Below, one piece after another: positions 1,007-62,729 of a stretch of 64,000 nt of DNA. Numbering within the stretch: the stretch's first letter is position 1; every line of letters starts with the position of its first letter. A program made the translations under genes and the position numbers. Source of the DNA: Sulfuriferula nivalis (GTDB lineage Bacteria > Pseudomonadota > Gammaproteobacteria > Burkholderiales > Sulfuriferulaceae); the NCBI RefSeq assembly GCF_009937995.1, contig NZ_AP021881.1, forward strand, positions 1,302,001 through 1,366,000, read 5' to 3'. The notes under the pieces were generated by a model. It worked only from the letters and a program-made list of their open reading frames with translations, was not told where the DNA came from and ran no database searches.

Positions 1007-2635
1007 TTATGGTAGTTCATTTTTAAACGGCAGCAATTCATCAATCTGGCTATTAGGCCAGACCGGTAATTTTTCCAACGTATCTTTGAGCCATGCATAG
1101 GGTTCCAAGCCATTGAGCTTGGCGGTAGCCAACAAACTCTGAATCGCTGCAGCGCGTTTGCCTGCACGTTCTGAGCCTGCGAACAGCCAATTCTTTTTGC
1201 CGATGGCAATGGGTCGTATCGCATTTTCGACTGGGTTGTTATCAATAGGCAAGATGCCGCTGTCCGCATAGCGTATCAGTGCTGGCCAACGCTTGATGCT
1301 GTAATCCAACGCGCGGGCTGTGCCGCTGCCATCGGCCACTTTGACGCGAGTCTGGATTAACCAGTCATGCAGTTCGCCCAATAACGGTTTTGCCTGAGTC
1401 TGGCGCAACTGCAAACGACCTGCCGCATCCAGCTTGTCCGCAGCCTGCTCAATGGCATAGAGTGCCGCGATACGCTGCAGCGCAGCCGCTGCAATTGGAC
1501 TTTGGTTGGCCGCATGCAAATCAAAGAACTTCCGACGTGCATGTGCGAAGCATGCCAGCTCAGTGATGCCTTGGGTAAATAACGCTTTATAACCAGCGTA
1601 ATCGTCAACCATCAAGTGTCCTTGCCAACCTGCCAGAAAGTGCCGCGCATGCAATCCCTGTCGCCCTGGCTGATAGTCAAACACCACGATAGGCGGTGCG
1701 GATGAAGGGGATGCCAAATCACCCGTGCGGTAAGCCCACAGATAAGCTTTCTTGGTTTTGCCCGCCCCGGGGTCTAATTGTGGCACTGGCGTTTCATCCG
1801 CATGCAATACACTGCGTGCCAGCAGTAATTCAGTGAGCCTGTCGACCAACGGTTGCAACGCTACCCCCACACGTCCGACCCACTCCGCCAAGGTGGAACG
1901 CGCCAGGGTCACCTGGCTGCGCTGGGCAATGTGTTCTATACGGTAGAGCGGTAAATGATCAACGAATTTACTGATCATCACCCACGCCAGCAAACCTGAT
2001 GTCGCCACGCCGCCGTCGATGACGGCAGCTGGAATGGGGGCGGCAGCAACGGTTTCGCAGTGGCGACAAGCATACTGTGGACGGATGTGTTGATGCACGG
2101 TGAACTGGGCAGGTTCGACATCCAGTTGTTCGCTGATGTCTTCACCGATTTTGATTAACGCACCACCACACGCACCGCACTGGCAAGATGCAGGCTCATG
2201 GCGATGAATGATGCGGGGCAGATGGTCAGGCAGTGGCTGACGACCTGCGCGTGGACGCGCAGGCTTGGGGATAGCGGTTGTCGCATCTTCGGTATTAGGT
2301 GTATCTGGCTGCCCGATTTGGGCTTCAATGGCCGTGATGTCGGCTGCCCAGCACTCATCAAACAACGCACGCTGCTCAGGCGAGAGCTGCTCGCTCTTGT
2401 TGGCGAAGCGGATGCGGCGGTAATAGGCAAGTTCCAGTACCAAAGCCTGGTTCTTGAGTTCGGCGTGCTGGATTTGCTTAGTCAGCGTGAGGATTTGTGC
2501 GGTGTTTTGCTGGAGTAATACTGTGTTTTGTTGAATGAGTTCAGCATCCTGTTTAACCTGCGCCAACAGCTTATCCACATACGCCGCCAAGGCGGGATCG
2601 GGGATAAATTGGGCAAGTTGTTGGGCTGAATCCAT
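1007..2635 (-). CDS. tnpC: IS66 transposase TnpC (DDE)
   Basis: A 542-aa DDE-type transposase of the IS66 family. The ATG at 2635 is chosen because it follows a TATAAT-like box and the tnpB/tnpC spacer hairpin; the frame itself stays open further upstream. Visible parts are an N-terminal coiled-coil/Gln-rich segment (the leucine-zipper-like helix of IS66), a zinc-binding CxCGxCGG...CRHC region, the catalytic block beginning HADETPVP, and the C-terminal DNNPVENAIRP motif that carries the last acidic residue. It is intact and identical to the TnpC of copies 2 and 3. Confidence 0.95.
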   Translation of the reverse strand: MDSAQQLAQFIPDPALAAYVDKLLAQVKQDAELIQQNTVLLQQNTAQILTLTKQIQHAELKNQALVLELAYYRRIRFANKSEQLSPEQRALFDECWAADITAIEAQIGQPDTPNTEDATTAIPKPARPRAGRQPLPDHLPRIIHRHEPASCQCGACGGALIKIGEDISEQLDVEPAQFTVHQHIRPQYACRHCETVAAAPIPAAVIDGGVATSGLLAWVMISKFVDHLPLYRIEHIAQRSQVTLARSTLAEWVGRVGVALQPLVDRLTELLLARSVLHADETPVPQLDPGAGKTKKAYLWAYRTGDLASPSSAPPIVVFDYQPGRQGLHARHFLAGWQGHLMVDDYAGYKALFTQGITELACFAHARRKFFDLHAANQSPIAAAALQRIAALYAIEQAADKLDAAGRLQLRQTQAKPLLGELHDWLIQTRVKVADGSGTARALDYSIKRWPALIRYADSGILPIDNNPVENAIRPIAIGKKNWLFAGSERAGKRAAAIQSLLATAKLNGLEPYAWLKDTLEKLPVWPNSQIDELLPFKNELP

Positions 2636-2715
2636 GCTTGAATTATACCATTTCACCCCGCCTGAAACCAGCAATAATGCGGGTTTCAGGCATGTTTTTA
2701 CTGAATCATGAGTGG

Positions 2716-3075
2716 CTACACCTGCCAGTGGGCAGGGGCTGGGGCACTGAGTCTTTGCCAGTCGATACCTGTGATCAGCCAGTCCCACTGTGTGGGGGTT
2801 AAAGGATGGGTGATGGCAGCGATGTCTGGCCAGGTGAAGTGACCACGATGCAGTCGGCGTTGGCACAACCAGACCCCTGTGCCATCCCAGACCAGGAGCT
2901 TGACCCGCGTTTGGCGACGATTACGGAAGGCGTAGGCGGCGCCGTCGCAGGGACTGCGACCCAGGCGGTGCTGGATGCGCTGGGAAAGGCCATCTATGCC
3001 GATGCGCATGTCCACGGGTTCGATGACTAGCCAGACCTGGGTGGCGATGGGGCTGATGGGATGGGCAGATATCAT
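2716..3075 (-). CDS. tnpB: IS66 accessory protein TnpB
   Basis: A 119-aa protein of the IS66 Orf2 family, needed for transposition in studied IS66 elements although its biochemical role is unclear. The family-typical segments are present (VDMRIGIDGLSQRIQ near the N-terminus and KLLVWDGTGVWLCQRRL in the middle). The start overlaps the tnpA stop by four bases (ATGA), indicating translational coupling. Identical to the copies at 15907 and 20893. Confidence 0.95.
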   Translation of the reverse strand: MISAHPISPIATQVWLVIEPVDMRIGIDGLSQRIQHRLGRSPCDGAAYAFRNRRQTRVKLLVWDGTGVWLCQRRLHRGHFTWPDIAAITHPLTPTQWDWLITGIDWQRLSAPAPAHWQV

Positions 3076-3377
3076 GGCAGTTGCCGCAACAAGTCAATTA
3101 GCCAGGGCGTGCTAGCAATGGGAAGCTCTACCCGCCAGCCAGTGGGGCTGTGGAGCTGGAGCGTGCCCGTGACAGGCGCAGGTTGAACACTGACGGGGAT
3201 GAGGGTTAGCGGTGGCTGGCGCGTGAGATTGGGCGCTGTTGTCAGCTGGCTGCGCCAGCGATAAAAGGTCTTGGCACATAAGCCGTGCTGGGTGCAATAA
3301 GCTGTGACGGTCAGTTTGGTTTGTTGCCAAGCGGTAAGGTGCGTTTGCCAAAAATCAGGCGTGTGTCGAGTAGCCAT
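3072..3377 (-). CDS. tnpA: IS66 accessory protein TnpA
   Basis: A 101-aa IS66 Orf1-type protein with an N-terminal helix-turn-helix region (FWQTHLTAWQQTKLTVTAYC, then KTFYRWRSQL), as in DNA-binding TnpA proteins of this family. It is the first gene of the IS operon, and its TGA overlaps the tnpB ATG. Identical in all three copies. Confidence 0.94.
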   Translation of the reverse strand: MATRHTPDFWQTHLTAWQQTKLTVTAYCTQHGLCAKTFYRWRSQLTTAPNLTRQPPLTLIPVSVQPAPVTGTLQLHSPTGWRVELPIASTPWLIDLLRQLP

Positions 3378-15604: not shown

Positions 15605-15910
15605 ATGGCTACTCGACACACGCCTGATTTTTGGCAAACGCACCTTACCGCTTGGCAACAAACCAAACTGACCGTCACAGCTTATTGCACCCAGCACGGC
15701 TTATGTGCCAAGACCTTTTATCGCTGGCGCAGCCAGCTGACAACAGCGCCCAATCTCACGCGCCAGCCACCGCTAACCCTCATCCCCGTCAGTGTTCAAC
15801 CTGCGCCTGTCACGGGCACGCTCCAGCTCCACAGCCCCACTGGCTGGCGGGTAGAGCTTCCCATTGCTAGCACGCCCTGGCTAATTGACTTGTTGCGGCA
15901 ACTGCCATGA
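15605..15910 (+). CDS. tnpA: IS66 accessory protein TnpA (copy 2)
   Basis: 101 aa, identical to the protein at 3072-3377; its TGA overlaps the tnpB start. Confidence 0.94.
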   Translation: MATRHTPDFWQTHLTAWQQTKLTVTAYCTQHGLCAKTFYRWRSQLTTAPNLTRQPPLTLIPVSVQPAPVTGTLQLHSPTGWRVELPIASTPWLIDLLRQLP

Positions 15911-16266
15911 TATCTGCCCATCCCATCAGCCCCATCGCCACCCAGGTCTGGCTAGTCATCGAACCCGTGGACATGCGCATCGGCATAGATGGCCTTTCCC
16001 AGCGCATCCAGCACCGCCTGGGTCGCAGTCCCTGCGACGGCGCCGCCTACGCCTTCCGTAATCGTCGCCAAACGCGGGTCAAGCTCCTGGTCTGGGATGG
16101 CACAGGGGTCTGGTTGTGCCAACGCCGACTGCATCGTGGTCACTTCACCTGGCCAGACATCGCTGCCATCACCCATCCTTTAACCCCCACACAGTGGGAC
16201 TGGCTGATCACAGGTATCGACTGGCAAAGACTCAGTGCCCCAGCCCCTGCCCACTGGCAGGTGTAG
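15907..16266 (+). CDS. tnpB: IS66 accessory protein TnpB (copy 2)
   Basis: 119 aa, identical to the protein at 2716-3075. Confidence 0.95.
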   Translation: MISAHPISPIATQVWLVIEPVDMRIGIDGLSQRIQHRLGRSPCDGAAYAFRNRRQTRVKLLVWDGTGVWLCQRRLHRGHFTWPDIAAITHPLTPTQWDWLITGIDWQRLSAPAPAHWQV

Positions 16267-16291
16267 CCACTCATGATTCAGTAAAAACATG

Positions 16292-16321
16292 CCTGAAACC
16301 CGCATTATTGCTGGTTTCAGG
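16292..16321 (+). promoter_or_regulatory. Hairpin between tnpB and tnpC of IS66
   Basis: A perfect 9-bp inverted repeat (CCTGAAACC/GGTTTCAGG, 12-nt loop) is followed at 16335 by TATAAT just before the tnpC ATG. It may separate tnpC expression from tnpAB. The same structure is present in all three copies. Confidence 0.5.
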
Positions 16322-16346
16322 CGGGGTGAAATGGTATAATTCAAGC

Positions 16347-17975
16347 ATGGATTCAGCCCAACAACTTGCCCAATTTATCCCCGATCCCGCCTTGGCGGCG
16401 TATGTGGATAAGCTGTTGGCGCAGGTTAAACAGGATGCTGAACTCATTCAACAAAACACAGTATTACTCCAGCAAAACACCGCACAAATCCTCACGCTGA
16501 CTAAGCAAATCCAGCACGCCGAACTCAAGAACCAGGCTTTGGTACTGGAACTTGCCTATTACCGCCGCATCCGCTTCGCCAACAAGAGCGAGCAGCTCTC
16601 GCCTGAGCAGCGTGCGTTGTTTGATGAGTGCTGGGCAGCCGACATCACGGCCATTGAAGCCCAAATCGGGCAGCCAGATACACCTAATACCGAAGATGCG
16701 ACAACCGCTATCCCCAAGCCTGCGCGTCCACGCGCAGGTCGTCAGCCACTGCCTGACCATCTGCCCCGCATCATTCATCGCCATGAGCCTGCATCTTGCC
16801 AGTGCGGTGCGTGTGGTGGTGCGTTAATCAAAATCGGTGAAGACATCAGCGAACAACTGGATGTCGAACCTGCCCAGTTCACCGTGCATCAACACATCCG
16901 TCCACAGTATGCTTGTCGCCACTGCGAAACCGTTGCTGCCGCCCCCATTCCAGCTGCCGTCATCGACGGCGGCGTGGCGACATCAGGTTTGCTGGCGTGG
17001 GTGATGATCAGTAAATTCGTTGATCATTTACCGCTCTACCGTATAGAACACATTGCCCAGCGCAGCCAGGTGACCCTGGCGCGTTCCACCTTGGCGGAGT
17101 GGGTCGGACGTGTGGGGGTAGCGTTGCAACCGTTGGTCGACAGGCTCACTGAATTACTGCTGGCACGCAGTGTATTGCATGCGGATGAAACGCCAGTGCC
17201 ACAATTAGACCCCGGGGCGGGCAAAACCAAGAAAGCTTATCTGTGGGCTTACCGCACGGGTGATTTGGCATCCCCTTCATCCGCACCGCCTATCGTGGTG
17301 TTTGACTATCAGCCAGGGCGACAGGGATTGCATGCGCGGCACTTTCTGGCAGGTTGGCAAGGACACTTGATGGTTGACGATTACGCTGGTTATAAAGCGT
17401 TATTTACCCAAGGCATCACTGAGCTGGCATGCTTCGCACATGCACGTCGGAAGTTCTTTGATTTGCATGCGGCCAACCAAAGTCCAATTGCAGCGGCTGC
17501 GCTGCAGCGTATCGCGGCACTCTATGCCATTGAGCAGGCTGCGGACAAGCTGGATGCGGCAGGTCGTTTGCAGTTGCGCCAGACTCAGGCAAAACCGTTA
17601 TTGGGCGAACTGCATGACTGGTTAATCCAGACTCGCGTCAAAGTGGCCGATGGCAGCGGCACAGCCCGCGCGTTGGATTACAGCATCAAGCGTTGGCCAG
17701 CACTGATACGCTATGCGGACAGCGGCATCTTGCCTATTGATAACAACCCAGTCGAAAATGCGATACGACCCATTGCCATCGGCAAAAAGAATTGGCTGTT
17801 CGCAGGCTCAGAACGTGCAGGCAAACGCGCTGCAGCGATTCAGAGTTTGTTGGCTACCGCCAAGCTCAATGGCTTGGAACCCTATGCATGGCTCAAAGAT
17901 ACGTTGGAAAAATTACCGGTCTGGCCTAATAGCCAGATTGATGAATTGCTGCCGTTTAAAAATGAACTACCATAA
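16347..17975 (+). CDS. tnpC: IS66 transposase TnpC (copy 2)
   Basis: 542 aa, identical to the protein at 1007-2635, with the DDE motifs complete. Confidence 0.95.
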   Translation: MDSAQQLAQFIPDPALAAYVDKLLAQVKQDAELIQQNTVLLQQNTAQILTLTKQIQHAELKNQALVLELAYYRRIRFANKSEQLSPEQRALFDECWAADITAIEAQIGQPDTPNTEDATTAIPKPARPRAGRQPLPDHLPRIIHRHEPASCQCGACGGALIKIGEDISEQLDVEPAQFTVHQHIRPQYACRHCETVAAAPIPAAVIDGGVATSGLLAWVMISKFVDHLPLYRIEHIAQRSQVTLARSTLAEWVGRVGVALQPLVDRLTELLLARSVLHADETPVPQLDPGAGKTKKAYLWAYRTGDLASPSSAPPIVVFDYQPGRQGLHARHFLAGWQGHLMVDDYAGYKALFTQGITELACFAHARRKFFDLHAANQSPIAAAALQRIAALYAIEQAADKLDAAGRLQLRQTQAKPLLGELHDWLIQTRVKVADGSGTARALDYSIKRWPALIRYADSGILPIDNNPVENAIRPIAIGKKNWLFAGSERAGKRAAAIQSLLATAKLNGLEPYAWLKDTLEKLPVWPNSQIDELLPFKNELP

Positions 17976-20590: not shown

Positions 20591-20896
20591 ATGGCTACTC
20601 GACACACGCCTGATTTTTGGCAAACGCACCTTACCGCTTGGCAACAAACCAAACTGACCGTCACAGCTTATTGCACCCAGCACGGCTTATGTGCCAAGAC
20701 CTTTTATCGCTGGCGCAGCCAGCTGACAACAGCGCCCAATCTCACGCGCCAGCCACCGCTAACCCTCATCCCCGTCAGTGTTCAACCTGCGCCTGTCACG
20801 GGCACGCTCCAGCTCCACAGCCCCACTGGCTGGCGGGTAGAGCTTCCCATTGCTAGCACGCCCTGGCTAATTGACTTGTTGCGGCAACTGCCATGA
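20591..20896 (+). CDS. tnpA: IS66 accessory protein TnpA (copy 3)
   Basis: 101 aa, identical to the other two copies. Confidence 0.94.
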   Translation: MATRHTPDFWQTHLTAWQQTKLTVTAYCTQHGLCAKTFYRWRSQLTTAPNLTRQPPLTLIPVSVQPAPVTGTLQLHSPTGWRVELPIASTPWLIDLLRQLP

Positions 20897-21252
20897 TATC
20901 TGCCCATCCCATCAGCCCCATCGCCACCCAGGTCTGGCTAGTCATCGAACCCGTGGACATGCGCATCGGCATAGATGGCCTTTCCCAGCGCATCCAGCAC
21001 CGCCTGGGTCGCAGTCCCTGCGACGGCGCCGCCTACGCCTTCCGTAATCGTCGCCAAACGCGGGTCAAGCTCCTGGTCTGGGATGGCACAGGGGTCTGGT
21101 TGTGCCAACGCCGACTGCATCGTGGTCACTTCACCTGGCCAGACATCGCTGCCATCACCCATCCTTTAACCCCCACACAGTGGGACTGGCTGATCACAGG
21201 TATCGACTGGCAAAGACTCAGTGCCCCAGCCCCTGCCCACTGGCAGGTGTAG
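20893..21252 (+). CDS. tnpB: IS66 accessory protein TnpB (copy 3)
   Basis: 119 aa, identical to the other two copies. Confidence 0.95.
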   Translation: MISAHPISPIATQVWLVIEPVDMRIGIDGLSQRIQHRLGRSPCDGAAYAFRNRRQTRVKLLVWDGTGVWLCQRRLHRGHFTWPDIAAITHPLTPTQWDWLITGIDWQRLSAPAPAHWQV

Positions 21253-21332
21253 CCACTCATGATTCAGTAAAAACATGCCTGAAACCCGCATTATTGCTGG
21301 TTTCAGGCGGGGTGAAATGGTATAATTCAAGC

Positions 21333-22961
21333 ATGGATTCAGCCCAACAACTTGCCCAATTTATCCCCGATCCCGCCTTGGCGGCGTATGTGGATAAGCT
21401 GTTGGCGCAGGTTAAACAGGATGCTGAACTCATTCAACAAAACACAGTATTACTCCAGCAAAACACCGCACAAATCCTCACGCTGACTAAGCAAATCCAG
21501 CACGCCGAACTCAAGAACCAGGCTTTGGTACTGGAACTTGCCTATTACCGCCGCATCCGCTTCGCCAACAAGAGCGAGCAGCTCTCGCCTGAGCAGCGTG
21601 CGTTGTTTGATGAGTGCTGGGCAGCCGACATCACGGCCATTGAAGCCCAAATCGGGCAGCCAGATACACCTAATACCGAAGATGCGACAACCGCTATCCC
21701 CAAGCCTGCGCGTCCACGCGCAGGTCGTCAGCCACTGCCTGACCATCTGCCCCGCATCATTCATCGCCATGAGCCTGCATCTTGCCAGTGCGGTGCGTGT
21801 GGTGGTGCGTTAATCAAAATCGGTGAAGACATCAGCGAACAACTGGATGTCGAACCTGCCCAGTTCACCGTGCATCAACACATCCGTCCACAGTATGCTT
21901 GTCGCCACTGCGAAACCGTTGCTGCCGCCCCCATTCCAGCTGCCGTCATCGACGGCGGCGTGGCGACATCAGGTTTGCTGGCGTGGGTGATGATCAGTAA
22001 ATTCGTTGATCATTTACCGCTCTACCGTATAGAACACATTGCCCAGCGCAGCCAGGTGACCCTGGCGCGTTCCACCTTGGCGGAGTGGGTCGGACGTGTG
22101 GGGGTAGCGTTGCAACCGTTGGTCGACAGGCTCACTGAATTACTGCTGGCACGCAGTGTATTGCATGCGGATGAAACGCCAGTGCCACAATTAGACCCCG
22201 GGGCGGGCAAAACCAAGAAAGCTTATCTGTGGGCTTACCGCACGGGTGATTTGGCATCCCCTTCATCCGCACCGCCTATCGTGGTGTTTGACTATCAGCC
22301 AGGGCGACAGGGATTGCATGCGCGGCACTTTCTGGCAGGTTGGCAAGGACACTTGATGGTTGACGATTACGCTGGTTATAAAGCGTTATTTACCCAAGGC
22401 ATCACTGAGCTGGCATGCTTCGCACATGCACGTCGGAAGTTCTTTGATTTGCATGCGGCCAACCAAAGTCCAATTGCAGCGGCTGCGCTGCAGCGTATCG
22501 CGGCACTCTATGCCATTGAGCAGGCTGCGGACAAGCTGGATGCGGCAGGTCGTTTGCAGTTGCGCCAGACTCAGGCAAAACCGTTATTGGGCGAACTGCA
22601 TGACTGGTTAATCCAGACTCGCGTCAAAGTGGCCGATGGCAGCGGCACAGCCCGCGCGTTGGATTACAGCATCAAGCGTTGGCCAGCACTGATACGCTAT
22701 GCGGACAGCGGCATCTTGCCTATTGATAACAACCCAGTCGAAAATGCGATACGACCCATTGCCATCGGCAAAAAGAATTGGCTGTTCGCAGGCTCAGAAC
22801 GTGCAGGCAAACGCGCTGCAGCGATTCAGAGTTTGTTGGCTACCGCCAAGCTCAATGGCTTGGAACCCTATGCATGGCTCAAAGATACGTTGGAAAAATT
22901 ACCGGTCTGGCCTAATAGCCAGATTGATGAATTGCTGCCGTTTAAAAATGAACTACCATAA
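21333..22961 (+). CDS. tnpC: IS66 transposase TnpC (copy 3)
   Basis: 542 aa, identical to the other two copies and intact. Confidence 0.95.
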   Translation: MDSAQQLAQFIPDPALAAYVDKLLAQVKQDAELIQQNTVLLQQNTAQILTLTKQIQHAELKNQALVLELAYYRRIRFANKSEQLSPEQRALFDECWAADITAIEAQIGQPDTPNTEDATTAIPKPARPRAGRQPLPDHLPRIIHRHEPASCQCGACGGALIKIGEDISEQLDVEPAQFTVHQHIRPQYACRHCETVAAAPIPAAVIDGGVATSGLLAWVMISKFVDHLPLYRIEHIAQRSQVTLARSTLAEWVGRVGVALQPLVDRLTELLLARSVLHADETPVPQLDPGAGKTKKAYLWAYRTGDLASPSSAPPIVVFDYQPGRQGLHARHFLAGWQGHLMVDDYAGYKALFTQGITELACFAHARRKFFDLHAANQSPIAAAALQRIAALYAIEQAADKLDAAGRLQLRQTQAKPLLGELHDWLIQTRVKVADGSGTARALDYSIKRWPALIRYADSGILPIDNNPVENAIRPIAIGKKNWLFAGSERAGKRAAAIQSLLATAKLNGLEPYAWLKDTLEKLPVWPNSQIDELLPFKNELP

Positions 22962-33647: not shown

Positions 33648-34350
33648 GTCTGGCAGGAATAAAAAATGATCGCAACTAGCCACGCGCTTAAAAATTTGCA
33701 TCGTTTGCGCATAGAATTTCCGTTACAAGCCAGAATTGAAACTGCAGATAGGGCGATTCGCGATGCTTATGCGGTTGTGCTGTTAGCTTGGTTGCGGGGT
33801 GGTATTGCACCTCAATTCGATATAATTCCACAGTCTCAAGTAGATCAATTGACTGCTCTGGACGCCGTAGTAGTTACTGATGCTGGTCTGGGTTGCTATC
33901 CATTTAGCGCTGTCAAAACAGAGATAGAGGTTGAATTCGGTGGGCATTGCTTGTCAGCGATGTGCGCAATTGATGCGTTGGCTATTCCATTTCTTGCTCG
34001 ATTACCAGTTATCATCCGCTCACGTTGTCATAGTTGTCAAACACCACTGGCGATAGCAATGGATACTTCTGGAACCATTACCTCAGTCAGTCCAGTTGGT
34101 ACTTGTGTTGAATATCGTCAACTGGCAAATGAGCATGTCAGTTGCTGTAGTGACCTTTGCCCGGGTATCGGATTTCTGTGCACATCATGTGCTGAAATGG
34201 TATGTGGCTCGGAAGATATAATGCCTCTTGAAGATGCAGTTGAACGAAGCCGCTATCGCGGAGAAATATTCCCGAACCATCAAATTACGCAGCATAATTT
34301 CGTCTCCCCCAGCAATGGAATTTTGATTACTGTACCACGAGGAGACGACA

Positions 34351-35264
34351 TTGACAGCCCCCACACCCATCCCCGCGCACTTCGAGCACAATCACCAGCG
34401 ACTGCTGAATTGCCTCAAGCTCAGAGGCATGCAGCCTAAAACCATCGCCTTGTATTCACACGGCGTACGGCGCGCAGCGGTGTATTTTAATGACCAGATA
34501 GACGCGCTCACCAAGCCACAATTAACCGACTATTTTGTTCGCATCCTGGATACCCATTCATGGAGTACGCTCAAACATGATCTGTATGGACTGAAGTTCT
34601 ATTATGCCCATGTACTCAGCCAACCCTGGCCAGGTGCGGATCTGGTTAAACCACCCAAGTCATATAGCCTGCCCGACATCATTACCGTCGCCCAGGCACA
34701 ACAAATCTTCATGGCCACCCGCGTATTGAGCTACCGCGTATTCTTCTTCACCCTCTACAGCCTGGGCTTACGATTAGGCGAAGGCTTACGCTTGCAGGTA
34801 GGGGATATCGATGCGGATCGGATGCGGGTGCAAGTACGCAACGCCAAAGGCAACCGTGATCGATTGGTGCCGTTATCAGAGAACACCTTGCAGGTATTGC
34901 GCCGTTTCTGGCTCACCCATCGCAACCCAAGCTTGCTCTTTCCTAATCGACACGGCGGTCTTGCCAAATCGCACTTGGCACGCACCCCGCTGGATCGTGG
35001 TGGTATCCAGACCACCTTGGGTCAAGTGACCCGTGACTGTGGCTTAAAAAAAGAATTACACCACACAGCCTGCGCCACAGCTATGCCACCCACCTGATAG
35101 AAGCTGGCATCGATTTACTCGAAATTCAGCAGATACTCGGACACCAGTCCATCCTCACCACCATCCGCTACACCCACCTCACCGAACAACGCCATCAGAG
35201 CGCACACACTCGCCTTAATCAATTAATGGAGAAATTCCACATTCATTGGGGCAAAGTCAAATGA
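34351..35264 (+). CDS. XerC/D-like tyrosine recombinase, needs -1 frameshift (IS91-type copy A)
   Basis: The TTG start at 34351 has a GAGGAG-type ribosome site 9 bp upstream. In the zero frame the protein stops at 35097 (248 aa) and lacks the second half of the active site. A run of seven A (35046-35052) is in phase as A AAA AAA. A -1 slip there gives a 304-aa product with all catalytic residues: R141 (LGLRLGEGL), K166 (NAKGNRD), H239/R242 (HSLRH), H265 (LGHQS) and the Tyr274 nucleophile (TTIRYTHL). The N-terminal core-binding domain (about 15-95) is typical. The stop overlaps the transposase ATG (ATGA). All full copies share the shift site, so programmed frameshifting is likely, though a shared fixed mutation cannot be excluded. 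Confidence 0.8.
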
Positions 35265-36376
35265 TCAGACTGGCGCACATCGTAGCAACCTACGCAGCTA
35301 AACTGCTTGCACAACACGGTCATCACCTATTGCCCAGCCAGCAAGCTGCCTTAACCGCCTTTCAAACCTGCCGTAGCCAGATGAGCCCGAGGATGCAACT
35401 TGCCTGTGATGATTGTCAAACACCCAGCTACCTGCCACATTCCTGCGGTCATCGGCATTGCCCGCATTGCCAGGCGCACGAATCACAGCGCTGGATAGAC
35501 CAGCAATTACACAAATCCATCCCCGCCAACTACTTCATGCTCACCTTCACCGTGCCCGCCCAGTTGCGCACACTGGCCTGGCAACATCAGCGCGTCATGT
35601 ATGACTTGATCACACGCTGCGCGTGGGAAACAGTCAACACCTTCAGCCAAAACGACAACAAGCTGCGCGGCAGCGCAGGGGCGGTGACTGTACTGCATAC
35701 CCATAACCGCCGACTGGACTATCACCCCCATGTGCATCTCGTCATGCCCGCTGTCGCCTTTAACCCCAAACAGCGACGCATGCGTCATAAACACGGCAAC
35801 TACCTGTTTAACCACAAAGCCCTGGCCAAAGTATTTCGTGCCAAATTACTGGCAGGCATCAGACAAGCAGGACTCACCCTGCCAAACGATTACCCGACCG
35901 ATTGGGTGGTGGATTGCAAAGCCGTCGGCACTGGACAGCACGCTCTGATCTACCTTGGGCGCTATCTGTATCGGGGGGTGATACAGGAGAAAGACATCCT
36001 CTCCGACCGGCATGGTCAGGTCACCTTCCGTTACCGGAACAGCCAAACCAAACAAATGGAAACCCGTACCTTGAGTGGTGTAGCCTTCCTGCGACTGATA
36101 CTGCAACACATTCTGCCCAAAGGCTACCGCCGCGCCCGCAACTTTGGCTACCTGCATCCCAATAGCAAACTACTCACCCAGCTACAGCTGACCCACCTAT
36201 GGCGACGGAACAATCCGCCGCCAGCGCAACCCAGACCAGCGATACGTTGCCAATGTTGCGGTGGGGTGATGAAGATAGTGCGCACACGTATCAAAGCGAT
36301 ACCGCTAGCCACATCAGCCCCATCTATAAAACGGGAACACAGAGCAGATGACACAGGGTGGGAGACCATGCGCTAA
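35261..36376 (+). CDS. IS91-type HUH transposase (copy A)
   Basis: 371 aa from the ATG at 35261, which overlaps the recombinase stop. An N-terminal zinc-binding region (CDDCQ...CGHRHCPHC, about residues 50-70) precedes the HUH motif H157-V-H159 (in DYHPHVHL) and the two catalytic tyrosines Y231 and Y235 (YLGRY). A second Cys pair (CQCCGG) lies near the C-terminus. It is a single-strand nicking/rolling-circle transposase of the IS91/IS801 type, complete. Confidence 0.94.
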
Positions 36377-36843
36377 ACCAGCCCACACCGCCCACCTGCC
36401 AGACTAGGCAGGTATGGCCGTGCTCGCCCTGAAGAAGGCTGAAATTGGGTTAACATGCCCGAAAAGCCGACTAAAAACGGTGAGTTGAATAGAATAAGTT
36501 GCTGCAATGGCAACGTGAAGGTCGTGAAATGGCGGGTGGGATGCGTAACGCGTCCAGTTATGCCAGCATAGTCAAAAAGATATTTCCATAAGCGCTCAAG
36601 CAACACCCGCCCCAGCCATGCCGGGCTTGTCCAACAAACGGTTCAGATTGTGGCTCGCTTCGCGATCACAATCTAACCTTATTCGTTGTCGTTGGGCGTG
36701 ATTTTTTTGCTTTCCAGTCCAGACTACCCCTCATTTCGGATAGTATTCCTCAAGCTTAGTTGTAGAGTGAATACGTTTGACACTTGGCAGGAAAATAACC
36801 TAGCGCAATCGTGTAAAAAATTCAGTGCATCAGGAGAACGATA

Positions 36844-37248
36844 ATGAGCGAATGTTGCGCAACATCACGATCACATAAACTAGACTGTCCATACTGCCAG
36901 CAACCATGCAGTGCGGTGGGTGTGGAAACGCTATGCTATCACTTAAAGCAACCCTGGCAATGGCAGGCTAATGAGCATGTAAGTTATTACTTCTGTGACC
37001 ATAAAGATTGCGCAGTGATTTATTTTAGTGATAAGGGTGAGACGTGGCAGCAGGCTGAGCTACGTACGCATGTAGGTGTGAAACAACCAGAACCCGACGC
37101 ACTGGTTTGTTACTGTTTCGGTGTCCACTATGCTGAAGCTAATGTTGCTGCACGTGATTATGTCATTGCCCAAACCAAATCAGGTTCATGTGCATGCACC
37201 ACACATAATCCTTCTGGACGCTGTTGTTTAAAAGATTTCCCACGGTAA
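36844..37248 (+). CDS. Cys-rich CopZ-N-like zinc/[2Fe-2S] protein
   Basis: 134 aa with at least 14 cysteines. The pattern CPYCQQPC near the N-terminus, YFCDHKDCAVIYF in the middle and VCYCFGV...CACTTHNPSGRCC near the end matches the N-terminal zinc/[2Fe-2S] domain of Archaeoglobus-type CopZ copper chaperones. No HMA domain follows. It lies just downstream of the merB-like gene, suggesting a heavy-metal module. An AGGAG-like ribosome site precedes the ATG. Metal specificity (Cu, Hg) is not decidable from sequence. Confidence 0.75.
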   Translation: MSECCATSRSHKLDCPYCQQPCSAVGVETLCYHLKQPWQWQANEHVSYYFCDHKDCAVIYFSDKGETWQQAELRTHVGVKQPEPDALVCYCFGVHYAEANVAARDYVIAQTKSGSCACTTHNPSGRCCLKDFPR

Positions 37249-57082: not shown

Positions 57083-57191
57083 GAACGAAGCCGCTATCGC
57101 GGAGAAATATTCCCGAACCATCAAATTACGCAGCATAATTTCGTCTCCCCCAGCAATGGAATTTTGATTACTGTACCACGAGGAGACGACA

Positions 57192-58105
57192 TTGACAGCC
57201 CCCACACCCATCCCCGCGCACTTCGAGCACAATCACCAGCGACTGCTGAATTGCCTCAAGCTCAGAGGCATGCAGCCTAAAACCATCGCCTTGTATTCAC
57301 ACGGCGTACGGCGCGCAGCGGTGTATTTTAATGACCAGATAGACGCGCTCACCAAGCCACAATTAACCGACTATTTTGTTCGCATCCTGGATACCCATTC
57401 ATGGAGTACGCTCAAACATGATCTGTATGGACTGAAGTTCTATTATGCCCATGTACTCAGCCAACCCTGGCCAGGTGCGGATCTGGTTAAACCACCCAAG
57501 TCATATAGCCTGCCCGACATCATTACCGTCGCCCAGGCACAACAAATCTTCATGGCCACCCGCGTATTGAGCTACCGCGTATTCTTCTTCACCCTCTACA
57601 GCCTGGGCTTACGATTAGGCGAAGGCTTACGCTTGCAGGTAGGGGATATCGATGCGGATCGGATGCGGGTGCAAGTACGCAACGCCAAAGGCAACCGTGA
57701 TCGATTGGTGCCGTTATCAGAGAACACCTTGCAGGTATTGCGCCGTTTCTGGCTCACCCATCGCAACCCAAGCTTGCTCTTTCCTAATCGACACGGCGGT
57801 CTTGCCAAATCGCACTTGGCACGCACCCCGCTGGATCGTGGTGGTATCCAGACCACCTTGGGTCAAGTGACCCGTGACTGTGGCTTAAAAAAAGAATTAC
57901 ACCACACAGCCTGCGCCACAGCTATGCCACCCACCTGATAGAAGCTGGCATCGATTTACTCGAAATTCAGCAGATACTCGGACACCAGTCCATCCTCACC
58001 ACCATCCGCTACACCCACCTCACCGAACAACGCCATCAGAGCGCACACACTCGCCTTAATCAATTAATGGAGAAATTCCACATTCATTGGGGCAAAGTCA
58101 AATGA
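57192..58105 (+). CDS. Tyrosine recombinase with -1 frameshift (copy B)
   Basis: As at 34351-35264; the slip site A7 is at 57887-57893. The zero-frame product stops at 57938. Confidence 0.78.
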
Positions 58106-59217
58106 TCAGACTGGCGCACATCGTAGCAACCTACGCAGCTAAACTGCTTGCACAACACGGTCATCACCTATTGCCCAGCCAGCAAGCTGCCTTAACCGCC
58201 TTTCAAACCTGCCGTAGCCAGATGAGCCCGAGGATGCAACTTGCCTGTGATGATTGTCAAACACCCAGCTACCTGCCACATTCCTGCGGTCATCGGCATT
58301 GCCCGCATTGCCAGGCGCACGAATCACAGCGCTGGATAGACCAGCAATTACACAAATCCATCCCCGCCAACTACTTCATGCTCACCTTCACCGTGCCCGC
58401 CCAGTTGCGCACACTGGCCTGGCAACATCAGCGCGTCATGTATGACTTGATCACACGCTGCGCGTGGGAAACAGTCAACACCTTCAGCCAAAACGACAAC
58501 AAGCTGCGCGGCAGCGCAGGGGCGGTGACTGTACTGCATACCCATAACCGCCGACTGGACTATCACCCCCATGTGCATCTCGTCATGCCCGCTGTCGCCT
58601 TTAACCCCAAACAGCGACGCATGCGTCATAAACACGGCAACTACCTGTTTAACCACAAAGCCCTGGCCAAAGTATTTCGTGCCAAATTACTGGCAGGCAT
58701 CAGACAAGCAGGACTCACCCTGCCAAACGATTACCCGACCGATTGGGTGGTGGATTGCAAAGCCGTCGGCACTGGACAGCACGCTCTGATCTACCTTGGG
58801 CGCTATCTGTATCGGGGGGTGATACAGGAGAAAGACATCCTCTCCGACCGGCATGGTCAGGTCACCTTCCGTTACCGGAACAGCCAAACCAAACAAATGG
58901 AAACCCGTACCTTGAGTGGTGTAGCCTTCCTGCGACTGATACTGCAACACATTCTGCCCAAAGGCTACCGCCGCGCCCGCAACTTTGGCTACCTGCATCC
59001 CAATAGCAAACTACTCACCCAGCTACAGCTGACCCACCTATGGCGACGGAACAATCCGCCGCCAGCGCAACCCAGACCAGCGATACGTTGCCAATGTTGC
59101 GGTGGGGTGATGAAGATAGTGCGCACACGTATCAAAGCGATACCGCTAGCCACATCAGCCCCATCTATAAAACGGGAACACAGAGCAGATGACACAGGGT
59201 GGGAGACCATGCGCTAA
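58102..59217 (+). CDS. IS91-type HUH transposase (copy B)
   Basis: 371 aa, identical to copy A. The start overlaps the recombinase stop. Confidence 0.94.
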
Positions 59218-59637
59218 ACCAGCCCACACCGCCCACCTGCCAGACTAGGCAGGTATGGCCGTGCTCGCCCTGAAGAAGGCTGAAATTGGGTTAACATGCC
59301 CGAAAAGCCGACTAAAAACGGTGAGTTGAATAGAATAAGTTGCTGCAATGGCAACGTGAAGGTCGTGAAATGGCGGGTGGGATGCGTAACGCGTCCAGTT
59401 ATGCCAGCATAGTCAAAAAGATATTTCCATAAGCGCTCAAGCAACACCCGCCCCAGCCATGCCGGGCTTGTCCAACAAACGGTTCAGATTGTGGCTCGCT
59501 TCGCGATCACAATCTAACCTTATTCGTTGAACGAAGCCGCTATCGCGGAGAAATATTCCCGAACCATCAAATTACGCAGCATAATTTCGTCTCCCCCAGC
59601 AATGGAATTTTGATTACTGTACCACGAGGAGACGACA

Positions 59638-60551
59638 TTGACAGCCCCCACACCCATCCCCGCGCACTTCGAGCACAATCACCAGCGACTGCTGAATTGC
59701 CTCAAGCTCAGAGGCATGCAGCCTAAAACCATCGCCTTGTATTCACACGGCGTACGGCGCGCAGCGGTGTATTTTAATGACCAGATAGACGCGCTCACCA
59801 AGCCACAATTAACCGACTATTTTGTTCGCATCCTGGATACCCATTCATGGAGTACGCTCAAACATGATCTGTATGGACTGAAGTTCTATTATGCCCATGT
59901 ACTCAGCCAACCCTGGCCAAGTGCGGATCTGGTTAAACCACCCAAGTCATATAGCCTGCCCGACATCATTACCGTCGCCCAGGCACAACAAATCTTCATG
60001 GCCACCCGCGTATTGAGCTACCGCGTATTCTTCTTCACCCTCTACAGCCTGGGCTTACGATTAGGCGAAGGCTTACGCTTGCAGGTAGGGGATATCGATG
60101 CGGATCGGATGCGGGTGCAAGTACGCAACGCCAAAGGCAACCGTGATCGATTGGTGCCGTTATCAGAGAACACCTTGCAGGTATTGCGCCGTTTCTGGCT
60201 CACCCATCGCAACCCAAGCTTGCTCTTTCCTAATCGACACGGCGGTCTTGCCAAATCGCACTTGGCACGCACCCCGCTGGATCGTGGTGGTATCCAGACC
60301 ACCTTGGGTCAAGTGACCCGTGACTGTGGCTTAAAAAAAGAATTACACCACACAGCCTGCGCCACAGCTATGCCACCCACCTGATAGAAGCTGGCATCGA
60401 TTTACTCGAAATTCAGCAGATACTCGGACACCAGTCCATCCTCACCACCATCCGCTACACCCACCTCACCGAACAACGCCATCAGAGCGCACACACTCGC
60501 CTTAATCAATTAATGGAGAAATTCCACATTCATTGGGGCAAAGTCAAATGA
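59638..60551 (+). CDS. Tyrosine recombinase with -1 frameshift (copy C)
   Basis: The same as copies A and B except for one substitution, Gly95 to Ser. The slip site A7 is at 60333-60339. Confidence 0.78.
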
Positions 60552-61663
60552 TCAGACTGGCGCACATCGTAGCAACCTACGCAGCTAAACTGCTTGCACA
60601 ACACGGTCATCACCTATTGCCCAGCCAGCAAGCTGCCTTAACCGCCTTTCAAACCTGCCGTAGCCAGATGAGCCCGAGGATGCAACTTGCCTGTGATGAT
60701 TGTCAAACACCCAGCTACCTGCCACATTCCTGCGGTCATCGGCATTGCCCGCATTGCCAGGCGCACGAATCACAGCGCTGGATAGACCAGCAATTACACA
60801 AATCCATCCCCGCCAACTACTTCATGCTCACCTTCACCGTGCCCGCCCAGTTGCGCACACTGGCCTGGCAACATCAGCGCGTCATGTATGACTTGATCAC
60901 ACGCTGCGCGTGGGAAACAGTCAACACCTTCAGCCAAAACGACAACAAGCTGCGCGGCAGCGCAGGGGCGGTGACTGTACTGCATACCCATAACCGCCGA
61001 CTGGACTATCACCCCCATGTGCATCTCGTCATGCCCGCTGTCGCCTTTAACCCCAAACAGCGACGCATGCGTCATAAACACGGCAACTACCTGTTTAACC
61101 ACAAAGCCCTGGCCAAAGTATTTCGTGCCAAATTACTGGCAGGCATCAGACAAGCAGGACTCACCCTGCCAAACGATTACCCGACCGATTGGGTGGTGGA
61201 TTGCAAAGCCGTCGGCACTGGACAGCACGCTCTGATCTACCTTGGGCGCTATCTGTATCGGGGGGTGATACAGGAGAAAGACATCCTCTCCGACCGGCAT
61301 GGTCAGGTCACCTTCCGTTACCGGAACAGCCAAACCAAACAAATGGAAACCCGTACCTTGAGTGGTGTAGCCTTCCTGCGACTGATACTGCAACACATTC
61401 TGCCCAAAGGCTACCGCCGCGCCCGCAACTTTGGCTACCTGCATCCCAATAGCAAACTACTCACCCAGCTACAGCTGACCCACCTATGGCGACGGAACAA
61501 TCCGCCGCCAGCGCAACCCAGACCAGCGATACGTTGCCAATGTTGCGGTGGGGTGATGAAGATAGTGCGCACACGTATCAAAGCGATACCGCTAGCCACA
61601 TCAGCCCCATCTATAAAACGGGAACACAGAGCAGATGACACAGGGTGGGAGACCATGCGCTAA
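60548..61663 (+). CDS. IS91-type HUH transposase (copy C)
   Basis: 371 aa, identical to the other full copies. Confidence 0.94.
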
Positions 61664-61974
61664 ACCAGCCCACACCGCCCACCTGCCAGACTAGGCAGGT
61701 ATGGCCGTGCTCGCCCTGAAGAAGGCTGAAATTGGGTTAACATGCCCGAAAAGCCGACTAAAAACGGTGAGTTGAATAGAATAAGTTGCTGCAATGGCAA
61801 CGTGAAGGTCGTGAAATGGCGGGTGGGATGCGTAACGCGTCCAGTTATGCCAGCATAGTCAAAAAGATATTTCCATAAGCGCTCAAGCAACACCCGCCCC
61901 AGCCATGCCGGGCTTGTCCAACAAACGGTTCAGATTGTGGCTCGCTTCGCGATCACAATCTAACCTTATTCGTT

Positions 61975-62418
61975 GGACAGCACGCTCTGATCTACCTTGG
62001 GCGCTATCTGTATCGGGGGGTGGTACAGGAGAAAGACATCCTCTCCGACCGGCATGGTCAGGTCACCTTCCGTTACCGGAACAGCCAAACCAAACAAATG
62101 GAAACCCGTACCTTGAGTGGTGTAGCCTTCCTGCGACTGATACTGCAACACATTCTGCCCAAAGGCTACCGCCGCGCCCGCAACTTTGGCTACCTGCATC
62201 CCAATAGCAAACTACTCACCCAGCTACAGCTGACCCACCTATGGCGACGGAACAATCCGCCGCCAGCGCAACCCAGACCAGCGATACGTTGCCAATGTTG
62301 CGGTGGGGTGATGAAGATAGTGCGCACACGTATCAAAGCGATACCGCTAGCCACATCAGCCCCATCTATAAAACGGGAACACAGAGCAGATGACACAGGG
62401 TGGGAGACCATGCGCTAA
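61975..62418 (+). pseudogene. 5'-truncated IS91-type transposase (copy D)
   Basis: It keeps the two catalytic tyrosines (YLGRY) and the C-terminal Cys region but has lost the zinc region and the HUH motif, so it is inactive. Confidence 0.92.
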
Positions 62419-62729
62419 ACCAGCCCACACCGCCCACCTGCCAGACTAGGCAGGTATGGCCGTGCTCGCCCTGAAGAAGGCTGAAATTGGGTTAACATGC
62501 CCGAAAAGCCGACTAAAAACGGTGAGTTGAATAGAATAAGTTGCTGCAATGGCAACGTGAAGGTCGTGAAATGGCGGGTGGGATGCGTAACGCGTCCAGT
62601 TATGCCAGCATAGTCAAAAAGATATTTCCATAAGCGCTCAAGCAACACCCGCCCCAGCCATGCCGGGCTTGTCCAACAAACGGTTCAGATTGTGGCTCGC
62701 TTCGCGATCACAATCTAACCTTATTCGTT
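61975..62729 (+). mobile_element. IS91-type 3' fragment, copy D
   Basis: 755 bp matching 35933-36687 of copy A, that is the last third of the transposase gene plus the right end. One base differs (Ile to Val in the transposase). Confidence 0.93.

Follow-up and report, generated by a model that had tools for sequence, protein, structure and literature searches.

A 64,000-nucleotide (nt) stretch of the Sulfuriferula nivalis genome (NZ_AP021881.1, positions 1,302,001 to 1,366,000; hereafter the window, whose positions are used below unless genome positions are indicated) carries a 2446 bp element, placed at 34242-36687 by a first-pass annotation, in which a tyrosine recombinase gene is followed by an HUH transposase gene of the IS91 type. 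We consider it fairly probable (roughly 0.6) that this is a self-mobilising transposon built like an integron gene cassette, in which the recombinase would integrate the element, the HUH enzyme would copy it out, and a -1 frameshift would limit the supply of both. The case is built at the sequence level from a conserved slip site, a retained ATGA overlap between the two genes, selection on the -1 frame, the structure of the ends and targets, and a crossover mapped in one copy. The integron-like ends and targets had been missed by the first-pass annotation and are more surprising than the slip. The features are collected in Table 1.

The downstream protein matches the NCBIfam IS91 transposase family (NF033538, E 1e-103) and Pfam Y2_Tnp (E 4.4e-38), and it has the make-up of IS91 enzymes, a Y2 HUH transposase with a zinc-binding N domain; a sequence search of solved structures returned no match to it at E<=1. 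For the frame-0 part of the recombinase the solved structures closest by sequence are XerC-like, XerD and IntI4. The recombinase gene starts with TTG at 34351, and its frame 0 stops at 35097 beyond an in-phase A AAA AAA heptamer, as the first-pass annotation had read from the open reading frames (ORFs). The Pfam Phage_integrase model bears this out, since positions 3-128 of the model align with frame 0 (E 1.1e-13) and positions 126-171 with the -1 frame (E 4.9e-16), and the frame change is therefore located at the A-run. The stop of the -1 frame overlaps the transposase start as ATGA (35261-35264), again in agreement with what had been claimed.

Relatives were gathered using the transposase and the frame-0 recombinase as queries. 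The scans covered 100 genomes of relatives (16 with a match), 399 genomes of the order and 369 of the class (8 and 10 at E<=1e-45, respectively), named genomes (10 loci, including records of Nitrotoga, Gallionella, Sulfurimicrobium and Nitrosovibrio) and plasmids (3417 records, none reaching 60% identity; 6 of the 40 listed were retrieved). No relative of the transposase was found in viral contigs, and phage records gave four transposase matches at 23-27% identity. Loci are referred to below by our L numbers. All 13 scoreable elements of the clade that includes the window element (the window element itself, the fragment L035 of this genome and 11 from other genomes) have the same -1 phase, with A7 in eight and A8 in five, while recombinase identity to the window element falls to about 56% in L088. 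The codon preceding AAA AAA is TTA in eight, CTA in two, GTA in one and ATA in two, so the amino acid varies and the final A is constant; this is the pattern that had been proposed as a check, namely that the run and its phase persist while the flanking codons change. In L077 the counted lysines elsewhere are AAG (13/13 before the slip and 2/2 after it), yet AAA AAA is retained at the slip. Over the 60 codons 3' of the slip, the ratio of non-synonymous to synonymous differences (pN/pS) among 78 pairs is 0.35 in the -1 frame versus 1.30 and 1.34 in the other two, the L035 row ending soon after the slip. On direct reading of the alignment the slipped product matches the unshifted relatives in length across the slip stretch. 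The frame-0 stop lies 14 codons past the lysines and 163 nt 5' of the transposase ATG in 11 of the 12 elements intact there, and 21 codons past and 142 nt 5' in L077; the ATGA overlap is retained in all 12 elements not truncated in that region.

A tree was built from 38 elements that each had 200 or more aligned residues. It groups the shifted elements in a single clade (support 0.874), to which six elements without slip data also belong, and leaves the unshifted L083 just outside. Loci from which no slip data could be taken, with the region deleted, cut off or degenerate, are L039, L040, L054, L071, L073, L075, L076, L078, L079/L080, L082, L084 and L089. No unshifted copy was found in this genome among the 34 near-full copies and the 93% fragment (L035), which has A7 in the same phase as the window element. 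A one-base loss limited to this genome, which the first-pass annotation had named as the outcome that would speak against frameshifting, fails as an explanation because the shift is common to a clade found in several genera. With an in-phase heptamer, coding in both frames and a phase conserved among divergent relatives, the -1 slip at A AAA AAA is most likely programmed. A reading of the split recombinase as a decayed gene was set aside given the slip conservation, the clade and the selection on the -1 frame. The same annotation had presented the element as an unusual dual-chemistry transposon; the pairing of a tyrosine recombinase with an HUH enzyme stands, but it is no peculiarity of this element, since 18 of the 38 tree elements pair both enzymes with a one-frame recombinase (seven at 38-52% transposase identity, namely L083, L086 and L093-L097, and 11 that are more distant). 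The recombinase of L085 and L091, which belong to a different lineage, continues in the +1 and not the -1 frame near an A7, which could be decay or a different recoding; both were left out of the slip counts, the frame-0 stop of L085 lying before its A7 and the transposase of L091 containing two stops.

The ends of the element, once joined, are predicted to fold as an attC-like site. When the right end is placed directly before the opening bases of the left end, the order that results is R'' GTNCAAC, spacer, L''/L' stem, second spacer and R' GTTGRAC. Among ten elements compared in this way (L094 was left out), R'' and R' pair at 7/7 positions in six and at 6/7 in four, with the compensating forms GTCCAAC/GTTGGAC (four) and GTTCAAC/GTTGAAC (two), and all ten folds predicted with RNA parameters hold both stems in part. 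The copies at 57083 and 59529 noted in the first-pass annotation proved real and head to tail, and carry such a joined-end junction within the genome. By sequence and predicted fold the element has the layout of a gene cassette, with attC at the 3' end and the unit TTRRRY...G. The IS91 family is characterised by rolling-circle transposition and by the lack of terminal inverted repeats and of variable target duplications. At its tips the window element has a 6-base inverted match (AACGAA / TTCGTT), which is not kept in relatives ending TTTGTT.

The flanks of the element have only a fixed GTT in common. IS91 elements have a GAAC/CTTG-type tetranucleotide adjoining one end. The flank consensus here is CTTGAA-N6-GTT, left of the element, which we take to be the simple site of attC (L box, spacer, GTTRRRY). 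In 32 non-tandem left flanks, C occupies -15 in 23, T occupies -14 in 31, A occupies -11 in 26 and GTT is present in all. The 32 right flanks, some of them from fragments, have a purine at +1 in 31 and G or T at +2 in 30; they were located by an exact match ending in GTT, so that TT is required there by construction, and a separate count of 35 junctions, given below, is free of that. Shifted and unshifted relatives insert at similar sites (CTTGAA-N6-GTTR), and the unshifted L086 and L093-L097 have the same ends as the shifted elements. In a test for attC-like hairpins against 1076 control GTTR sites, with no downstream base used for any site and with tandem junctions (L073, L075) and duplicates (L109, L080) left out, p<=0.01 was reached at 11 of 23 further sites (22 from other genomes, L081 and L087 among them, and L035 here), or 10 of 22 without L035, and p<=0.05 at 15 of 23. 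Since 11/23 further sites pass p<=0.01 versus 4/32 in this genome, attC is favoured as a target and is not obligatory, and by this test most sites in this genome are not attC hairpins; five of them (L003, L004, L008, L024, L034) look attC-like by eye yet fail the score and are uncounted. An unshifted relative (L094; NZ_LT985243.1, 11205-13177) occupies an attC-type site flanked by resistance genes on an Escherichia coli IncC plasmid, oriented against the cassettes; attC is nearly symmetric. The genome of S. nivalis has a genuine integron integrase gene (L099, genome positions 3207092-3208030; TIGR02249, E 1.9e-145), with element copies beside it at 3208484 and 3211999, the other copies being scattered over the chromosome.

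The position of the crossover can be read in one copy, L030, with the left junction GATG-TT-GAAC and the right junction TTATTCG-GTAAATC. Three ways of joining the flanks were tried, and the 361-codon frame of the host gene stays open across the site only when TT is assigned to the element; had the target been a GTT of equal length, the stop TAA would, on direct reading, stand there, and the orthologues in the genus have GGT (3/4) or AAT (1/4) at this site. The reading frame therefore places the L030 crossover at G, 5' of TT, which is the integron position, and excludes a cut after GTT there. Of 35 distinct right junctions, 34 have TT after the G. Because the crossover maps 5' of TT, the unit should preferably be given as running from the TT preceding 34242 to 36685, a 2-nt permutation that leaves the length unchanged. 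The left junction of L087 reads TTT instead of GTT; unless this is a later mutation, it would point to a cut 3' of that base.

Table 1. Features of the element and of its further copies, in window positions.
Feature	Position	Strand	Basis or remark
Target simple site CTTGAA-GATGCA-GTT (L box, 6-nt spacer, R box start)	34227..34241	+	left of element; TT assigned to element by crossover mapping
R box GTTGAAC (GTTRRRY) across left junction	34239..34245	+	relatives: GTTGAAC or GTTGGAC
Predicted leader hairpin TCGTCTCC...GGAGACGA	34300..34348	+	directly 5' of recombinase start; 3' arm includes likely ribosome-binding site
Tyrosine recombinase, frame-0 part (248 aa; SAM-like N domain and first part of catalytic domain)	34351..35097	+	ORF, Pfam
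Slippery heptamer A AAA AAA	35046..35052	+	in phase as TTA AAA AAA G
Tyrosine recombinase, -1 frame part (rest of catalytic domain from RITPHSLRH)	35052..35264	+	ORF, Pfam
IS91-type HUH (Y2) transposase	35261..36376	+	start overlaps recombinase stop (ATGA)
R'' box GTCCAAC	36629..36635	+	joined-end fold
L''-loop-L' hairpin GGTT(C)AGATTGTG...CACAATCTAACC, one extrahelical base	36640..36678	+	may also be HUH origin
Spacer TTATTC and right-end GTT	36679..36687	+	crossover placed at G, 5' of TT
Tandem copy 1	57083..59528	+	genome copy comparison
Tandem copy 2, one substitution	59529..61974	+	joined head to tail to copy 1 through single GTT
3' fragment of third copy, element bases 1691-2446	61974..62729	+	directly after tandem pair

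These observations can be assembled into a pathway with a division of labour between the two enzymes. The HUH enzyme would start at the right-end hairpin and copy the element out as a circle, possibly single-stranded, whose joined ends would form the attC-like site (R'' GTCCAAC, L'', loop, L', R' GTTRRRY). The tyrosine recombinase would then recombine the circle junction with a CTTGAA-N6-GTTR target, often inside an integron attC, with strand exchange at G, 5' of TT, as carried out by integron integrases. We favour the recombinase as the integrating enzyme because target information flanks the crossover on either side, TT beyond it is near-constant and the catalytic half is conserved, and HUH copy-out because of the right-end hairpin and the IS91 transposase. 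A leader hairpin that covers the ribosome-binding site may restrict output. This hairpin, with a long outer stem and compensating stem changes, is predicted in 12 of 17 folded leaders sorted by eye, those of the window element, L035, L067, L068, L069, L071, L072, L074, L075, L077, L081 and L088, and the outer stem varies in step on both arms (for example TTCATCCTCA/TGAGGATGAA and TGTAACCTC/GAGGTTACA); the leaders of L038, L076, L083 and L086 are without it, and that of L085 has a shorter one. Ribosomes staying in frame 0 would yield the truncated 248-aa protein, and slipping ribosomes would make the full-length recombinase and then reach the overlapping ATGA start of the transposase. The fully specified version, a single-stranded circle made by the HUH enzyme, folding as attC and pasted at attC-type simple sites by a recombinase that is not an IntI, with both enzymes rationed by the frameshift, is tentative, and we would give it somewhat short of an even chance.

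Several points weigh against the cassette-like transposon. On score and on alignment the recombinase is not an IntI: the window halves, scored apart, reach 71 and 54 bits with TIGR02249 and two unshifted full-length relatives 164 and 162, where the cut-off is 265 and the IntI of this genome scores 484, and gaps of about 23 and about 8 residues stand opposite that IntI, without the additional internal segment of IntI proteins. Binding of a folded single-strand attC can therefore not be assumed. The window element has one R''/R' mismatch; the extrahelical bases fall on the 5' arm in 7 of the 10 folds predicted with RNA parameters; L093 and L097 have a 1x1 mismatch in place of the extrahelical base, and L095 is without the lower L stem. 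The crossover mark comes from a single copy and leaves G^TT and ^GTT indistinguishable, and in this genome even p<=0.05 is reached at only 5 of 32 sites in the hairpin test. A bulged hairpin at the right end may also be the form of an HUH origin. On another view the HUH enzyme would transpose the element alone, recognising its own right end and similar target hairpins and cutting near GTT, with the recombinase as an accessory (for example in circle resolution) and the likeness to attC a by-product of hairpin targeting. The IS91-type transposase is indeed intact, and the right end is a hairpin, often bulged, followed by a short spacer and GTT, a layout shared by attC targets. However, target information flanks the junction on both sides (the L box at -15 to -10, and +1 and +2, with right flanks that include fragments), as in a recombinase simple site; TT, which lies 3' of the crossover and would be target-derived on the right, is nevertheless present at nearly all right junctions; and the catalytic half of the recombinase is under purifying selection. 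We regard transposition by the HUH enzyme alone as unlikely. That same selection also speaks against movement by the host integron integrase as an ordinary cassette, with a dead or regulatory recombinase, for which the true intI of this genome, the two copies beside it and the attC-like joined ends could be cited; the majority of copies are found away from the integron, where the insertion sites have a specific L box, and this account appears improbable.

The slip has its own difficulties. No stimulatory RNA structure was found 3' of it, the consensus giving one weak 8-pair stem, and the folding energies of L068, L077 and the window element lie within 1 standard deviation of simple shuffles; no Shine-Dalgarno-like element is obvious by eye at the slip; and the clade members L069, L072, L074 and L088 have further frame lesions. 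The missing stimulator and these four lesions would fit a recombinase broken throughout the clade, with movement by the HUH enzyme, either unaided or assisted in trans. One proven insertion sequence frameshift is, in the part of the source consulted, without an established stimulator (PMC4066793). The A-run, its phase and the -1 coding are kept in 13/13 elements, no unshifted copy that could help in trans was found in this genome, and the chance of a clade-wide broken gene seems very small. The -1 product might instead arise from transcriptional slippage on the A-run, which the consulted part of the same source names as a hazard of A7 (PMC4066793) and which the A8 of five elements would suit; yet 8/13 have only A7, and in 13/13 the run keeps the codon register of a tandem-slip heptamer. 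Transcriptional slippage seems rather unlikely.

The element has 37 matches in the 3.4 Mb genome, of which 34 are full or near-full copies and the other three are fragments. The window copy is among 29 that are identical across all 2446 bases; two others have a single substitution each, one is 100% identical over element bases 1-2444 and one over 11-2446, and the copy at genome positions 3211999-3214439 (in L034) is 98% identical overall, with no differences over bases 1-1870 and 61 listed differences after that. The pattern of the L034 copy is a mosaic, as if it had recombined with a diverged relative, and at the left end of the L033 copy element bases 1-10 are missing. The third-copy fragment is joined to the tandem pair as GTT/GGAC, where the intact element reads ACT/GGAC. 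At 33666-34241 and 36844-37248, the window copy splits a reading frame that matches alkylmercury-lyase (MerB), and a CopZ zinc-domain gene is located downstream. From the ORF list, three sets of 101-, 119- and 619-aa frames at 1007-3377, 15605-17975 and 20591-22961 are probably copies of another element.

If the cassette-like reading is true, one transposon unites two DNA-breaking chemistries in a single pathway that already uses the recombination code of integrons; it would be a gene cassette that moves itself. The slip would in addition be a -1 frameshift conserved in a tyrosine recombinase gene, from which translation is handed to a transposase. Such elements could link IS91 transposons to integron cassettes or be a source of attC sites, and they would bear on the origin of attC sites and gene cassettes and on the disruption or seeding of integron arrays.

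Parts of this picture are already known, namely IS91 elements with an integrase-like gene, insertion sequences that target attC and one IS91-like element beside an attC; neither attC-like ends nor a slip turned up for IS91 elements with a tyrosine recombinase in the open-licence full texts searched. ISfinder lists IS91 elements with an integrase-like gene. The element resembles this subgroup in its IS91 transposase and in the recombinase gene lying upstream with a 4-nt overlap, an arrangement annotated in E. coli, Salinivibrio and Photobacterium plasmid records, and differs from it in the recombinase split by a conserved -1 slip and in the attC-like ends, which its unshifted relatives share. 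The IS3 and IS1 families are insertion sequences with programmed -1 frameshifting. In the consulted part of one source, 72% of heptamers in two insertion sequence types are A_AAA_AAG or A_AAA_AAA (PMC4066793). Unlike in other frameshifting insertion sequences, the slip here would make a tyrosine recombinase and pass translation to a separate HUH gene. Integron gene cassettes share the GTTRRRY core, the attC-like fold of the joined ends and the crossover at G, 5' of TT, whereas the element has its own tyrosine recombinase, which is not IntI, and an HUH gene, and its copies are scattered across the chromosome; for attC itself, a bottom-strand AAC crossover and extrahelical bases are described in the part of PMC4792948 consulted. 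The IS1111-attC insertion sequences likewise target attC, as far as the consulted text goes (PMC12444791), but use a DEDD enzyme according to the portion seen of PMC11187229, in place of the HUH enzyme and tyrosine recombinase found here. ISShvi3 of a Shewanella integron, likened by description alone, is IS91-like and adjoins an attC, and the consulted part of its account mentions no tyrosine recombinase, attC-like ends or frameshift (PMC9229058). The strand-biased circularizing elements typified by SE-6945 also rely on tyrosine recombinases, and SE-6945 has a one-strand circular copy and no empty donor site; it differs in having two tyrosine recombinase genes and in sites at which its authors detected no attC-like inverted repeats, and the part of that account consulted mentions no HUH gene (PMC9345347), whereas in the element described here an HUH transposase and a single tyrosine recombinase stand side by side.

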